From: Sarcomyxa edulis
Taxonomy: Eukaryota > Basidiomycota > Agaricomycetes > Agaricales > Mycenaceae
Direction of reading: 5' to 3'
Assembly (NCBI GenBank): GCA_009761415.1
Contig: QUOL01000003.1
Span: 1,054,001 to 1,118,000, forward strand
DNA length: 64,000 nucleotides
Every line of letters begins with the position of its first letter. Position 1 is the first letter of the stretch. The position numbers and the translations under genes were made by a program. Under the pieces are notes generated by a model. That model did not search any database. It saw nothing but the letters and a program-made list of their open reading frames with translations, and was not told the DNA's origin. Shown piece by piece: positions 1-8,894 of this stretch.

Positions 1-590
1 CGTGGCACCAGATAGAAATGTGTGCGGGGCAAAGGCAGGGGAAACATAGAGTGAACGGACAAAGTGGGAAGGGTTACGGGCGCGTGTGAGAAGGGTAAGG
101 CCAAGCCCCCGTCTTGAAGATGGGATGGAAGGGTGCGTGGATGGAGGCTTAGACAGCATCAACGATGTTTCCAGCTCATTCTGTAAGACAAGGCATTGTT
201 AGTAATAATTTGTCTAGAGTTTACTGAGAAACAGACACCTTTCCCTCGGCATTAAACACTGCGCCTTTCCCGGCATTGAACAAAGGGCAATCTGGAAAGA
301 CAACAATGTCAGACAGAAGCTTCTGATGACATACAGGCCAAGGCACCTTCAAGTACAGTCACAGCTGCAACGACCGCATCCATAGCCTCACCACCTCCAC
401 GCAGGACTTGGTACCCTGCTTGGAGAGCGTTTCGCAAGGTGACTCTATACCGAGCTTGCTGTTCAGGAGTCGAGCCTTCCTTGGACATCGTGCCAGCCCC
501 ACCGTGAATGACTAAGACATAGTCATTGCCTTTACCACTAGTTTTAGGGGCCGAACCTGAGAGAAGGGGATGCTTTTCCGATGAAGACAT
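1..590 (-). CDS. Isoaspartyl peptidase/L-asparaginase (Ntn hydrolase), 5' part only
   Basis: N-terminal part of a plant-type asparaginase, the enzyme family that cleaves isoaspartyl peptides and asparagine after autoproteolysis. Three exons fit: 590..335, 291..239 and 180 running off the left edge. Exon 1 has the family opening 'VIHGGAG' and a 'GGEAMDAVVAAVTVLE' helix, exon 2 reads 'CPLFNAGKGAVFNAEGK', and exon 3 continues with 'ELETSLMLSKPP' and 'SSRRGLGLTLLTR'. Donors and acceptors are GTATGT/CCAG and GTGTCT/ACAG. The ATG at 590..588 was chosen because MSSSEKHPLL leads directly into the conserved domain. The catalytic threonine and the autocleavage site lie outside the window, so completeness cannot be judged. 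Family assignment is firm. The exact first splice junction, which gives an unusual Tyr before CPLFN, is less so. Confidence 0.88.
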
Positions 591-670
591 AGTAAGTGAT
601 ATCAATGCTGCGAGTTGGGTTCAAGGTATTCAGACTCTACAACCAGCTTCGGTTCAATGGAAAGAACCGG

Positions 671-769: not shown

Positions 770-777
770 CTTTGTGT
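770..777. repeat. Left target-site duplication CTTTGTGT
   Basis: Eight bases CTTTGTGT immediately outside the left inverted repeat, repeated exactly at 6937..6944 immediately outside the right one. An 8-bp duplication is what P-element and hAT superfamily transposases produce. Confidence 0.9.
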
Positions 778-791
778 CAAGGGGGTACCGG
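778..791 (+). repeat. Left terminal inverted repeat
   Basis: CAAGGGGGTACCGG, 14 of 14 bases identical to the reverse complement of 6923..6936. It forms the outer edge of the transposon directly inside the CTTTGTGT duplication. Confidence 0.88.
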
Positions 792-804
792 GAATCGAAC
801 CCGA
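781..804 (-). other. tRNA T-arm-like end with a pol III B-box-like motif
   Basis: On the minus strand the left end reads as a tRNA 3' half: a T-stem of five pairs (UCGGG/CCCGG, one of them a G-U wobble) around the loop UUCGAUU, then UACCCCC like an acceptor strand. GGTTCGATTCC matches the B-box consensus. No matching 5' half, D-arm, A box or sensible anticodon stem is found in the following 150 bases, so this is not a tRNA gene. It may be chance, a tRNA relic captured at the element's end, or a structure recognised by the transposase. Confidence 0.5.
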
Positions 805-1035
805 CACCAGGGCTTGGTTAGTTAGTCCGGCCGTCAAGTCTGAAAAAAAAACTTTGACCCCTCATATTTTTGTCTTGTTTTGAGCTCAGAATAGACTCTT
901 GTGACCGAAAGAAGATACATTTAGACCAAATATGTGGAATAACAACTAATAGAGCGAAGCTCGAGGGCAAACTCGAACGTCAATTTTCTTTACAGTATTA
1001 AAGAAGCCTGCCTTCTCGGAGGAGCTGTCTTCACA

Positions 1036-4000
1036 ATGGAGGTCAGTCATATGGAGACATCAAGATATATCTGAGCTATGCTAATGTCGACAAAATTCAA
1101 TCTATGATAGCCTGATCCCGAAGTCGTTCCACCGGGCTACGCAAAATGCCCGGAATGTGGTATGCATGTTAACCTGGGACCGGTAGGCATCAGTAATCTC
1201 GAGAAGCGCCACTTGGGCAGCAAAGCATGCAGGAAAGCAAAAGACAAACGAGATAACACTCCCAAGAAAAACATGTCGATCTTCAGCTTCATGAAAAAAA
1301 TTCCCCGACTTGTACCAACCACCGTCTCCGCACCCTCACTCGTCCATGCAACATCACAGTCTACTCCGGTAGCACGTCAATCTGATGAGACACGCACTGA
1401 GCCCATCACAGCTACAGTTCTCCTTGAAGTTCATGACACTGGTGCATGTCCTGTCGCGACGCGACTTCTTCAAGAGCTTCGCATGGCTATCGATCAGCTT
1501 CCTGATGGGGTACCTGAAGGACACGATGGAGACGAACTTGCCGTGTTTTCGGGTGATCCAGAGACGTACGCCAATGCAGAGGCAGGTTCCGATGAAATAT
1601 GGGAGCAGACTTTGCATCCTCTGCTGACGAACGCGCTTGGATGGAGAAAGACCACAGAAGAAGCGGAGAAGCTTATCCGTCGTGGAGAGAAGGGATTAGA
1701 GGGACTTTGGAAGTTCTTGAATTACTTTGTGGGTACACGAGGTCTGCAGGGTGGACTTCTTGAGGGAAAGCTTCGAGTGTTGATTGACGCAATCAATTCT
1801 ATGTGAGGAATCTTTCGTGAATTTCCGAGTCAAAGCATTAGAATAAGACTTACCGTGTCTCTAGAATAACAAAGACAGCGGCACATCCACCTCAACCAAT
1901 ACAGCCGGCAAGTCTGTCTCCGACCCTTCCCTCCATCACCGGGGCCGATATTCTAGAAGTAAATCAAGTTAGCCTACTCGTAGAAGACATGCCAATCGAC
2001 GTTGACGCGGTACCTGACATCGAGATTTTACTGCCGCTCCAACTGCCTGCATTAAGAACACCGTCGTGCGCAGGCTTCACAATGACATTCCCCCCTGGTA
2101 AAACTCCACACTCGTCCTACCCATTTGCGTTGCACGATGAACTAGCTTTACCCTGGGACTATACGGTCAGTAATGGGGTGCTCACTCTACGTGCTCGCAC
2201 CTGTACAGGGAAACCGACAAGCAAGTCCAGAAATTGCGGCCCATGTCTGATGCTCAACCTCAACAAATCCCTGCAGGGTATAATTCATCGGATTCACAAT
2301 GGTGTTCAAGAGAATGCGAAATTTGCTTACCAGGCCCACGGAGGAATGGTGGTGATAGCGCGGCGGAAGACACGCCAAAAAGACGTCGTGCGATTACATG
2401 ACTTGAATACTGGGAGAACACTTCTCGGAAAGGCGACTGCACTAGAGGATCACAAGAGGCTCTTGGTTGCACTTGCTAGCGGAAAATTTGCGAGTGTGCA
2501 TCGCCTTCTCCGTGCAAATTTGGCTCAACATAAGGGGATTTTGACCATCCTGGAACTCCATGATGCGGCAGTGCGAGGGTTTTACAGTCCAAAAGGATAT
2601 ACTGAAGAAGATGAACTACGGGGCATACTGCTATGGAGATTAGGAGGGAATCGACTCGCCGAGATTGGGCACCGTGCATTAGGCCTTCCTGGAATGACCA
2701 CCCTCCGAAATCGATCGAGAGTTCCTCATCTCATACCCTCGCATACTACTCCAACCTCCAGTGAAATCCAGACCAACGTCGACTCGTGTTTTGATAGTTT
2801 GAAAGAGGTTCTGAGCACCGCAAAGGTTGTTCATCAGGTTCTCATGTTTGATGAGATCGCTACAGAGAAGCGCCTCAGATGGGATGACAAGACCAATAAT
2901 TTCTTGGGTGTTTGTAGGGAGCACGGAAAGGCGACGAGTCTCGAGTTCCAGGGTGAGGACGACTTGGAAGAGGTCTTCCGTAGCTTAGAAAAGGACGAAG
3001 TCCACTACTCTAGTGAGGTAAGTCTTCTATCGTTGTTTCCCACGTGTATTATCTCAAATCCCTCTCAGGCAACGGTTGGCGCTCTCGGGCTACTTAGTCA
3101 AGACACTCGAATATACAGCGCTCGGCCTATTCTCATTTCTGGAACCTGCAAACGCGAAAATGGCAGGGAACATGCTAAGCTCATTAGAACGACCATCAGT
3201 GCTGTTGATAGCAAAAAAACCAGCACAAACCTCAGGATAATCTCTATCGCTTCAGACGGCGAATCAAAACGCGGTGCATCTTTTGTTATTCTGACGTTCA
3301 AGCATGAACTGAAGCCGGAGTCTCCCATTCATTCCCTCCTGAGTGCTCTCCGGTTCATGAATCTATGGGTCGGAGACGATGACCTGACACCCGACAAGGA
3401 TTTCAAGCACGTTATAAAGCGCCTTCGTAACCTATTGCTCCGTGTCAGTGGTATCAACATTATGGGATTCATTATCACTCCTGCAATAATCCGTTCACAC
3501 CTTCGAGATGCTGGCCATTCCGCAGAACATCTCAATGCTATTTTTAACCCCGCCGACAAACAGGACGTCAAACTAGCCTTCGATATATTGCGGGATATCT
3601 GGTCATTGCCACCTGCTGCAGCAGACGCCAAACCCGGATTTTCAGCAGCACGGAAAGCGCTTCGAGTTATGGGCAAGCTCCTCCACCATATTGTGTTTCC
3701 CTACCTGTGCATCGACCTTTCACTCTCCGAACAACTTGCTCATCTCAGCGCCGCAGCCCATCTTTCTCTCGCTCTCTATAGTGAAGGACGCAAATCATTC
3801 ATACCCACCCTTCTGTACATCGACATCATGATAATGATCAAGAATGTCTTTTTCTGTGTTGCGAAAGGGAAAATTGATGATCCAGACGGCTCATTTTGGA
3901 TTATTCTTCTTGGAACAGACCGTCTCGAAGAACTATTCGGCATTCTTCGCACTATGGTGGGAAATGACTCAAATTTAGATTCTCTTCAGCTTTCGCATCG

Positions 4001-6719
4001 TCTCACCGGAACTACAGAAGTGTCGAATATTCTTGCAAAGCACCCCGAGTGGGATCGTGGTCCTCGTCGCCTCAGACTTCCTCCCATGACACGAGACGCG
4101 TCCGAAATCTCAGCCAAATCGGATCACATTAAGCCTGCATCTTGGCGCGGGAATGTGAAACTTCGCGATGCTGTCCTTATCACGGCTTGGAAACAAGGAC
4201 GGTATCTAGTCGAAACAGACCCAGACTGCACCTTTGCATTCGACATCCTTCACCAACTCGAGGCACATCCTGGAGCGGATATCCTCTCACCCTTTGGGGT
4301 TCTTTTGGTCCACATCACGCTTGATCCTGACGACACGGAGACCGGTCCCGACAGTACCCCGATGCACGACGCGGTACCTCCATCCGACTCAAATCCATGT
4401 TCTCTAGAACTTGAAGATGCTACTGGAGGCTACACTCGGGACGATTCTGTCCATTCTTTCAGCCATCACATCGAAATCAGTGGTAAAAAAATTAACAAAA
4501 CTCGAGCTTTAGCCCTTCGATCAAAATACAAAACATCGCCCAGCTCCACGGATCGTCTCCGCCGCGTTGAACAACAACAGCGCTATACATCTTCCAGCTT
4601 TCAAGAATCAGATACAATCCTCGAGAACAGTTCAGCGTTCGGTGCGCCATGCATATTCTTATCCGAGCCAATCGCAACTCTCGTTTCTTGTAATAAACAG
4701 TTCTTTCTCGCTCTTGCTGAAGTGAACAACATCACCATCGACACAGTCCCCGTAGAGTGTATTGGGCTCGACATGCTTTGGGAAGATACCGTCAAGGTTT
4801 CATATCAAGTCTTGTGCCTTGTTCCCGCCAATACTCTGGATGACCCCAGCCTCAAACACGATTGGCGATCTCGTGGTATGCTTGATGGTATTGGCTCTAC
4901 AGTATCGGGGCGTATGGTCCAGCCCGTAAATCCAGCGATCTCTACCGCTGTACCTCACAAGCCGTTCTATCTCTTCGAGAGTAGCGTCATTATGGCTCTT
5001 GCGTCAAGTCTTGTTGACCGAATTTTCCTTCGCGACTTCAAGAACATACCAACGGTCAAACAGACGGTTTATTTTCCTTATCGTGAAGCTTCCGGTATGT
5101 ACAGTCAACAGTAACAGTTTATATTTGCTGACATACGTTCAGGGAAAGCATGCTTTGTATCCGAGACATCTGAGAATACACGCGCGCAAGACGGGGAAGG
5201 TACTCACATATGTCCAAGCTGCGGTAGGACTCTTGATAGTAATGGACAACACGCGATCTCCCATGTGGGAGGTCATACTCTCAACGATCCTAACGTGGAT
5301 CGGTCCTCCGAGCCATGCGGTCTATGTCTTAGCCCAGCTCCAATCTGCAGGATATTTCTTCGAAAAGGTAAAGGTTCTGGGTCTGGTCTTCAGGTCAACC
5401 GCGCAGCTTCATCAGGGTGTCCCAATTTAGTCAATTTCTCGTACGCTAAAGCCTCCAAATCGACACGAACGTCGCCGTGCTCCAATGTCCCACTTCCTTG
5501 CCCTCTGTGTCCGAAAGATGCTCCCGCTGTCTGGCGCTACAACCTGAAGTATCACTTCATGAAAACACATCCTCACGCACCTCTCCCAAAGTACCAACAG
5601 CTATGGACCCTATCCGAATTCGAAATCTCCGAGATGTTGAAGATCTGGAACGATCGTGGTAAGACTACAAAAAAGCGAAAACAAAAGAACCTGCCTGCCC
5701 TTCTGATTTCTGAAGCGCATAGCTCTCGGTTAGCATCCTGGTATGTCTTACTGCAGCTTGGGTTTCGTGTATTCCGACTAACCTGCCTCATGATCCCAGT
5801 CCCGGTTCTGCTAACAATGACGACGAGCTTGAGAACGACAACGACGACGGCGATGGGGACAGTGATGATGGCGATGGAGATGGCGAAGAAGGCAGTGATG
5901 AAGGCGATGGAGATGACGATGAAGGCAGTGATGAAGACGACGACGAAAACAGGAGTAAGGATGAGAGTGAAGGCATCGGATTGGGCGAGGATCATGGTCA
6001 ATCTCTTCCTCAAGTTTGCAACAACGACAAAGAGCTTGAACGAACCGACTGGCAGCTACCCACCTCTGAAGACAGTTCTAGCACGCCGCCACTCACGACT
6101 TCGCTTTTGCGCTTCGCCAGCCATACTGGTACTCTCGAACAAGTCTCGCTCGAGAACACTACACAAATCAGGACACTTTCACCTAGTGCCTCTCCCGGAC
6201 CTTCCAAGTTGGCAGCAGCCGATGCCTCACCAACGTTGAACTCTCAGGTACTTACTCGATATCTCTCGCATCTCATTTTACCGTGACTGATCAAATTGCC
6301 TCTCGAAGATTGACCCCTCGATTCATATCCCCGTGACCCCGCAGGAGACTCGCCGCGATATCGAGAGTCCGCCGCTGCTGAGCCATGCTGAACATGACCA
6401 AGAAACGCTCAGCCGTCCACGTCGCAAACGAAAGTGTATCGATATCGGTGATCTCCACCAATGCCTGTGTGGGTTGGTCATCCGAGATGAAGAATATGTC
6501 CGGTCACCAGATGATATTGTACAATGCGCTCGTGCTGGATGTGAGACGGAATTGGTATGTCATCATTCTCTCTATCGACCGATTGATGTTGACGGCGCAA
6601 TGTTCAAGTATCATCTAGCATGCCTTACGAACAGTGATGAAGTCACTGATGGTTGGATCTGCACAGCTTGCAGGTCATACTCAGAGCCTTCGCGAGGTGG
6701 AAAACGAGCCCGTCGATAG
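1036..6719 (+). CDS. P-element/THAP9-like transposase with zinc fingers and PHD finger
   Basis: Predicted 1759 aa from eight exons: 1036-1041, 1111-1802, 1865-3017, 3069-5094, 5143-5740, 5800-6247, 6309-6554 and 6609-6719. Residues 15-42 form a C-x2-C-x17-H-x5-C finger. RNase H-fold candidates are 'MFDEI' (Asp562), 'ASDGE' (Asp680) and 'DFKHVIKRLRN' (Asp728, His731), in the order and style of the P-element motifs DEM, SDG and D-x2-H-x2-K-x2-RN. A later conserved-looking block holds 'LLGTDRLEELFGILR'. After about residue 1300 come Cys/His clusters (from C1316 and around 1412-1437), an Asp/Glu-rich tract (about 1493-1545) and a PHD-like finger (about 1693-1748). Exon 1 is only six bases, so the start is the weakest point. 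No internal stop or frameshift was found. Related proteins are common in Agaricomycetes, usually as hypothetical proteins. The transposase assignment rests on motifs plus the flanking repeats. Confidence 0.78.
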
Positions 6720-6815
6720 TCTAGAAAGCTCATGTAGCATTGTCGATCAACCTACAGTACAACGACGATACTGATTCGAGAATTGGTGCACCCTCTGGTA
6801 TGATCCCGCTTCCGC

Positions 6816-6836
6816 ATATGGTAACTATTACCATAT
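6816..6836. other. Subterminal palindrome (9-bp arms, 3-base loop)
   Basis: ATATGGTAA, CTA, TTACCATAT: a perfect 9-bp inverted repeat 97 bases downstream of the transposase stop and about 90 bases inside the right terminus. P elements carry internal inverted repeats near their ends, so this may be a transposase or host-factor site. A role in transcript 3'-end formation is also possible. No clear second copy is seen near the left end. Confidence 0.55.
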
Positions 6837-6922
6837 ATGGAAGACCCTTGATTACGTCAGTCAGTCAGTTGCTCTCGCAAGGCTGCAAAAAATAAATCGA
6901 CCCCAGGTAAAATATTATGTTG

Positions 6923-6936
6923 CCGGTACCCCCTTG
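6923..6936 (-). repeat. Right terminal inverted repeat
   Basis: CCGGTACCCCCTTG, the exact reverse complement of the left terminus 778..791, directly followed by the second CTTTGTGT. Confidence 0.88.
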
Positions 6937-6944
6937 CTTTGTGT
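6937..6944. repeat. Right target-site duplication CTTTGTGT
   Basis: Identical to 770..777. Removing one copy together with 778..6936 restores a plain intergenic spacer between the asparaginase and aspartic protease genes, so the insertion did not break a coding gene. Confidence 0.9.
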
Positions 6945-7292: not shown

Positions 7293-8894
7293 TCAAGCAG
7301 GAAAAGCAAACCCTACGCGCTTATTTCCATAATCGAATAACGCATACACGTTCTGGAGGAAAACATCACCAACTATCCAGAAATCTGTACCGATGTCTTC
7401 GCCTGTGATTCCTCCTACACATTCAGAGCCTCCCACTGAGAGGGCACCGAGGTTGAAAGTTTCGAACGAAATGGGAAATGCCTTTCCGCCATAAGTGAAG
7501 CTGATGGATGGGAATGACTTGGTCGCGCATGGAACTGATGGATAGTGCATTCGGTATCCGTCACCGAGAGCAAGAACGATGATCGACTCACAGGTGTAGA
7601 AACCAGAGCCGATGGTATTGATGGCTTCTTTGGATCCAGGAATCGATTTATAGAAGGTCTTGACTTGGGCCGGAGTGCCAACAACTGTTGGTGTTATAAT
7701 GAGAAAGCGAACGATGGACACAAGGGGAAAAAAGATCCTCACTGAGAGTGGTTCCAGTGTCGATAATCGAGTCAACGTTGCTAAACAATTTCTTGCCTGC
7801 CACAGATATGGCTTCCGTGGTCACTTGCCAGTACCCTTCGGTCGTGATAGGCGTATAGGCGATTGCACCAGTGTACAAATTTTTGTTGCTTGTGCCCAGT
7901 GTCAGCTCAGAATACCCGGATGTTAGTCTGAACCCGAATACAGATTCGTCAGTTTGCCCTTCCGCGACGAAAGTCTGGAATACGGGGGGCTGGTTGAAGT
8001 TAGATATCTGTTGAAAGCCCATTCCTGATATCATTCCGTCAGATTCTGGAGAGGATCATCAATGGAATCAGCAGCCCACCCAAAAGTCCATCCGCAGGGA
8101 ACTGAGACTTTGCAAATCCGCTGGAATATTGCTTAGCAGCACCGACCGCCTGCTTAGTCGCCTGCGAACAACCAAGGCTTAGTCTCTAGGTTTCTGCGAC
8201 GGGCTGATACTTACATTGAGCCCTGCAATACGAACGGTGTCACTGAATTGTTCACCGCTCACGGTAGAGCCATCCCCATACGCGAGACTGAACGTTCTTT
8301 TGAGATCGATTGAAGTAGAGCTGGTTGACGGGTTATATATCGCGTGTCCAGAGCAACTGGACTTGCAGTTCGGACCAGGCAAGAAGAGGTCGCTGCTGCC
8401 GGTGTCAAAATCAACTAAGGATTGAAGTTAGTTGTGGAATCATTTTTTTTTCGCGAGAAAGGGCTGTCGACATGCCAGTATATTGCTTGGGAGGAGTTCC
8501 TACTGAGATGGTCCCATACCACAGATTTTCTTGGACATCCACAAGGGACAACTTGCCGTTCGCGCGCTTCGCCAAAGTCGAATTGGGATTGTATCCAGGG
8601 TGATGAGCTCCAGTGTTTCTTTCGAAAGCTTTGAATCCTTTCTGGAGTTTCCTAAAATATGAGAGGGAATATGAAGGTGGATTGGATATATGATATGTAT
8701 CCTGAACGCACTTACCCGACGGTGCGCGAGACTTGGTCGCGGAGTGATTGGACATTGACAGAACCATCAGAGTTCAGTAAAGTAGTGCGTCTTGTGAGGG
8801 GGATCACGTTCCTTCCTGCGGCAGGGATGGGGGCAGGCGATGCGCCGACTAGGAAGGGGAGAGCAGCTGCGAGTACAAAGAAAGTGGACCGCAT
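7293..8894 (-). CDS. Secreted pepsin-like aspartic protease (family A1)
   Basis: Six exons: 8894-8716, 8651-8476, 8414-8215, 8161-8080, 8024-7743 and 7684-7293. The start MRSTFFVLAAALPFLVGASPAP is a signal peptide, followed by a basic pro-region. Both catalytic motifs are present: 'DFDTGSSDLF' (exon 3) and 'IIDTGTTL' (end of exon 5, with the next residue split over the intron). The flap region contains 'YGDGS', and the end 'FLQNVYALFDYGNKRVGFA' is typical of the family. Two Cys pairs are visible ('CKSSC'; the Cys of 'FYTCES' with the Cys of 'SVPCATK'). Spliced length is close to 435 aa, normal for the family. The intron 8475..8415 must use a GC donor (GCATGT), because using the nearby GT gives a stop. 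A TATAAG lies about 42 bases before the ATG at 8941..8936. The likely role is extracellular protein degradation. Confidence 0.93.

Follow-up and report, generated by a model that had tools for sequence, protein, structure and literature searches.

The 64,000-nt stretch of Sarcomyxa edulis DNA analysed here (the window: assembly GCA_009761415.1, contig QUOL01000003.1, positions 1,054,001-1,118,000 of the forward strand) contains, at positions 770-6944, an apparently complete and recently mobile element of this mushroom-type fungus, very probably a DNA transposon that moves by cut-and-paste and belongs to the P superfamily. The analysis established its boundaries, its target duplications, a second near-identical copy, short relatives with matching ends, a reading frame that is open in both copies, conserved acidic residues and the predicted fold. 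The P-type transposon proposed in the original prediction, which was made from the letters of the window, is supported by these results.

Boundaries, copies and relatives in the host genome

The 14-bp inverted repeats and the 8-bp target duplication that had been claimed for the element were both found to be exact.

770-777, no strand: left 8-bp target site duplication CTTTGTGT; the second copy carries GTTTGAGG there
778-791, plus strand: left terminal inverted repeat CAAGGGGGTACCGG, an exact match to the right end
6923-6936, minus strand: right terminal inverted repeat, the exact reverse complement of 778-791
6937-6944, no strand: right 8-bp target site duplication CTTTGTGT, by direct sequence match

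With up to two mismatches allowed, the 14-bp repeat occurs at only two sites in the window, where 0.21 are expected, and at least two sites were reached in 1 of 100 shuffles. Copies and relatives were searched for in the host genome (35.6 Mb, 40 contigs), in which the exact 14-mer is present at seven places: two are the ends of the window element, two are the ends of a second copy on contig C2, and three stand singly. A copy with the same termini and a different duplication had been suggested as a check, and the C2 copy is such a copy, being 6,159 bp long like the window element, differing from it at 10 positions (0.16%) and flanked on both sides by GTTTGAGG. Since two near-identical copies carry different 8-bp duplications, these ends are the real ends of the element, and recent movement is the simplest reading.

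Two 511-bp elements (C1:161415-161925 and C36:1295471-1295981; 91% identical) have CAAGGGGGTACCGG at one end and a 13/14 version of it at the other, with the duplications CCCTACAC and ACTGACAG. Past the repeat, their right end is identical to the left end of the window element in 30 and 31 of 51 columns, and their left end to its right end in 27 and 26 of 51, which none of 10,000 shuffles reached; when like sides were compared, which was done for the C1 relative, 17 of 51 columns agreed in each case, a value reached by 976 and 698 of 10,000 shuffles. Blocks within these regions are as follows.

816-828, plus strand: left subterminal block GGTTAGTTAGTCC, offset 39-51; one end of the 511-bp relatives has GGTAGGTAGGTCC at this offset; candidate transposase-binding site
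6855-6870, plus strand: right subterminal four-base-periodic stretch CGTCAGTCAGTCAGTT, offset 67-82, recognised by eye; role putative
6898-6908, minus strand: right subterminal block ACCTGGGGTCG, offset 29-39 counted from the right end; its counterpart in the 511-bp relatives has an equal offset in their other end

Because the conserved blocks lie at fixed offsets of 39-51 at one end and 29-39 at the other, the ends are asymmetric. The binding sites of the P element are likewise spaced differently at its two ends, according to the accessible part of PMC7776569, and by analogy the subterminal blocks may be transposase-binding sites.

On the minus strand, 780-803 of the left end resembles a tRNA T-arm with an RNA polymerase III B-box (GGTTCGATTCC). 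A tRNA origin of this T-arm-like string (TCGGGTTCGATTCCCGG) was rejected, as ARAGORN found no tRNA in the window or in seven loci, and Rfam gave only sub-threshold noise. Within the genome a 21-base string, with up to two mismatches, was found in the two copies and nowhere else, and since the homologous end of the 511-bp relatives has no TTCGA, the T-arm-like string is read as a feature of the element end.

A second, single-copy P-type element, a paralog of 5,949 bp, lies on contig C25 (L022:2431-8379). Its protein is 33% identical where matched, its duplication is CGGAGGAC, and its inverted repeat is identical over 42 bases; exact matches to its 20-base end occur only at its own two ends. An internal repeat, CGGGGTCCCG(G/A)TGCCAA, was seen by eye near both ends. 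Remnants were found on C3 (L053:1992-5860, ∼3.9 kb, a decayed N-terminal transposase region with a stop) and on C2 (L017, a C-terminal transposase fragment), and a short element on C34 is flanked on both sides by TCCGAGAA, as judged by eye. At six places (L039, L040, L041, L042, L046 and L050) CTTAAAGC adjoins a CAAGGGGGTGCCGG end, which on C3 is one end of the ∼3.9 kb remnant; this remnant may be an old derivative that was deleted internally and copied as part of a larger repeat.

The window element sits upstream of a minus-strand Asparaginase_2 gene, ∼180 bp from its start codon. A single site is too few for a promoter preference to be claimed.

1-620, minus strand: left neighbour, Asparaginase_2 gene, 5′ end toward the element
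7296-7820, minus strand: right neighbour, aspartyl protease gene

The transposase and its predicted catalytic core

Splice sites were predicted from consensus signals, by eye, together with homolog comparison, giving the following gene model on the plus strand.

1036-1041, plus strand: exon 1 of the transposase gene
1111-1802, plus strand: exon 2
1865-3017, plus strand: exon 3
3069-5094, plus strand: exon 4
5143-5740, plus strand: exon 5, with Cys/His-rich stretches CPSCG...H, CGLCL and CPLCP
5800-6247, plus strand: exon 6, with an Asp/Glu-rich run at its start
6309-6554, plus strand: exon 7, first part of the PHD finger
6609-6719, plus strand: exon 8, end of the ING-like PHD finger and stop codon

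The corrected eight-exon model encodes exactly 1,759 amino acids (aa) with no internal stop, in agreement with the 1759-codon gene originally claimed. Homologs revealed a 54-base in-frame intron at 6555-6608; a model without that intron has 1,777 aa, and some domain scores were computed on this longer version, with 6555-6608 read as coding. The frame of the C2 copy is open as well, and its protein differs at three residues. The single gene of the element encodes a 1,759-aa transposase with a predicted RNase H fold.

A homology search with residues 390-1110 scored 7,994 sequences, 244 of them at E ≤ 0.001, and 120 of the 244 were listed. The closest among the matches listed, from Lyophyllum atratum, is 60% identical; the listed homologs are annotated as hypothetical, uncharacterized or PHD-type, and their species are presumably all Agaricomycetes. 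The C25 protein retrieved another set, in which 80 of the 2,133 proteins scored reached E ≤ 0.01; the named species are again presumably Agaricomycetes. A strict D-x2-E pattern hit 38 members of this set of 80, in which fragments and partial gene models are frequent. One protein, P0121, shares 98% identity with the part of the C25 paralog used as query and is encoded on nine contigs, indicating a very similar element in another public dataset.

The motifs MFDEI, ASDGE and DFKHVIKRLRN, previously reported in that order, are located at residues 560, 678 and 728. Conservation was assessed in an alignment (A1) of 28 rows, the window protein and 27 homologs picked by eye for spread from the 120 listed.

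2850-2852, plus strand: codon of D562 (MFDEI), predicted first catalytic Asp, on RNase H strand 1; D in 27/28 rows
3255-3257, plus strand: codon of D680 (ASDGE), predicted second catalytic Asp, just past strand 4; 28/28 rows
3399-3401, plus strand: codon of D728, the D of D-x2-H right after strand 5, at the start of the helical insertion; invariant
3918-3929, plus strand: codons of D901-E904 (DRLE), E904 being the predicted catalytic Glu; E in 28/28 rows

The single exception at the first Asp is an N in P0005, and the H of D-x2-H is as invariant as its D. In the predicted model, an RNase H fold, the first acidic residue lies on strand 1, the second just past strand 4 and the third on helix 4, and a strand at 330-333 is followed mostly by helices up to a helix at 507, forming the insertion domain. 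Fold prediction had been proposed as a check, and the core it returned has the P element transposase (6P5A) as its best solved structural match, with 380 residues aligned at 17% identity. In the accessible text of PMC8230255, the P catalytic definition comprises D/D/E on an RNase H fold, [C/D]-x2-H after strand 5 and an insertion before helix 4; here a predicted fold with D/D/E and a D-x2-H with a predicted insertion domain were found, together with inverted repeats and 8-bp duplications. D901 lies three residues before E904, the same spacing as D528 and the catalytic E531 in Drosophila (PMC7776569, as far as its text was accessible).

Several results weigh against a P-type transposon. The Pfam model of the P transposase, PF21787, did not reach its curated cut-off (24.6 bits), which is a threshold for detection and not a biological feature, scoring 19.8 bits on the 1,777-aa model, 22.7 on a 683-aa piece, and 20.3 and 20.1 in the genome search. 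A sequence-based search of the PDB with the A1 profile did not find the P transposase. Of the residues that contact GTP in the Drosophila insertion domain (D528, K385, K400, V401, S409, F443, D444 and N447), only the equivalent of D528 was placed, as D901, through the D-x2-E spacing. Full copies in the host genome number only two and are nearly identical, so these exact ends have a single origin, and no empty site was found, the joined flanks matching only this locus, as two halves.

The alternatives are far less likely than the P-type transposon. Elements of the hAT superfamily also produce 8-bp duplications, and the terminus CAAGG is compatible with the hAT end pattern; no hAT C-terminal dimerisation domain was listed for the window protein at E ≤ 10, and we regard a hAT transposon as very improbable. 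The domain scan at the same threshold listed no KDZ (Kyakuja-Dileera-Zisupton) transposase domain either, KDZ sequences not having been compared directly. A RAG1/Transib-like element or a new superfamily, sharing with P only the general architecture of an RNase H core with an insertion, has a similarly slight chance of being correct: it is opposed by a gap of nearly 9 Z units, by the D-x2-E spacing that matches D528/E531, by duplications of 8 bp rather than the 5 bp of Transib, and by PF21787 being far the most frequent Pfam model, matching 23 of 28 family members at E ≤ 1 against 2 for the next. Least likely of all, to the point of being negligible, is a domesticated host gene such as human THAP9. 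The protein is indeed large and multi-domain with a PHD-like finger, but exact ends with different target duplications in two near-identical copies already contradict domestication through the C2 copy, as do the short relatives with the same ends.

For a P-type transposon, the transposase would bind the asymmetric subterminal blocks and the 14-bp ends, the helical insertion domain would hold a nucleotide as in Drosophila, the D562/D680/E904 active site would excise the element, and insertion would occur with an 8-bp stagger. By analogy the nucleotide may be GTP, and the window element may be active in transposition.

Zinc fingers and the C-terminal extension

1147-1230, plus strand: N-terminal C2HC zinc finger (C-x2-C-x17-H-x5-C), residues 15-42, from pattern and homolog comparison
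4647-4979, plus strand: predicted beta-barrel in the C-terminal extension, weakly Tudor/chromo-barrel-like

Among the 38 listed homologs with at least 1,600 aa, 31 have a C2HC pattern within their first 150 aa. No THAP domain was listed at E ≤ 10 by HMMER, whose filters drop most weak matches. Since none was detected, the protein is not considered THAP9-type and is not placed in the THAP clade; of the P/THAP9 assignment originally made, the P part stands on the RNase H core and motifs, with PF21787 below its cut-off, and the THAP9 part does not.

The protein continues for ∼800 aa past the aligned core, with Cys/His-rich stretches and, at the C-terminal end, the C4HC3 zinc pattern of a PHD finger. 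On a 71-aa C-terminal piece PF00628 scored 19.0 bits (E 0.0015), under its 24-bit cut-off, and the best PDB match was an ING-family PHD finger (E 0.0027). The W before F-H of ING sequences, presumably an aromatic-cage residue for H3K4me3, is W in 16/16 listed homologs with a C-terminal W-x-C-x2-C and L in the window copy, in which a complete aromatic cage for H3K4me3 was therefore not found. A weak match to the finger region (E 0.001), with a stop inside, was also seen at L016:9365-9532, ∼8 kb from the 511-bp relative on C36.

The C-terminal finger belongs to a class that often reads histones and may have a targeting role. The PHD finger of RAG2 steers RAG1 in trans, an analogy for a chromatin-reading P transposase. 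It is a tentative idea, more doubtful than probable, that in one fungal P clade the transposase became joined to an ING-like PHD finger, perhaps along with a Tudor-like barrel, such that histone marks steer insertion within one enzyme. A second P clade in the same genome, which seems to lack the PHD finger, offers a natural comparison, and the PHD extension is the part that could make the element a distinct variant.

Relation to known P elements

Like the Drosophila P element (6P5A, 6PE2), the window element combines an RNase H core with a helical insertion between strand 5 and helix 4, the order D/D/D-x2-H/E with a D placed three residues ahead of the catalytic E, duplications of 8 bp, asymmetric ends and shorter relatives sharing those ends, so far as the Drosophila sources were accessible. 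It differs in having inverted repeats of 14 rather than 31 bp, a C2HC finger where THAP was not found, and the ∼800 additional aa with Cys/His-rich stretches and the PHD finger. The zebrafish THAP9 element Pdre likewise has short repeats (13 bp), 8-bp duplications and internally deleted relatives, according to the accessible part of PMC7776569, but is THAP9-type, no THAP domain having been found in the window protein. RAG1/RAG2 and Transib differ in duplication length, and here the PHD finger is inside the transposase itself.

A repeat class named 'P-Fungi' appears in the accessible parts of papers on Daphnia magna (PMC8594854), Phakopsora pachyrhizi (PMC6136362) and Pleurotus ostreatus PC80 (PMC12387193; 10 copies, 46,557 bp in total). 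Like the window family it is a P-type DNA transposon class of fungi, two other Pleurotus species are among the listed homologs, and the window family is likely the 'P-Fungi' group. The accessible part of PMC3985635 describes insect Tnp_P_element sequences and, in Amoebozoa and chromalveolates, distant homologs of them, and the main text of a 2025 survey of fungal TET-bearing transposons, in its accessible part, contains neither 'P element' nor 'P superfamily' (PMC12730594). The view that the family is poorly described thus holds for the searchable papers, where it is a label, but the group already had its name in annotation tables.

For this fungal P branch, otherwise a mere label in the searchable papers, the window element now provides exact boundaries, target duplications, short relatives and a coding sequence that is open in both copies. 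Many mushroom proteins annotated as hypothetical or PHD-type, 244 of which matched, can be reinterpreted as transposases or transposase remnants. The element helps to tell general P features, namely the RNase H core and its insertion domain, the 8-bp stagger and the asymmetric ends, from the animal-specific THAP domain. One of the two clades has a PHD finger and the other apparently has none, which provides a handle on whether chromatin reading steers insertion.
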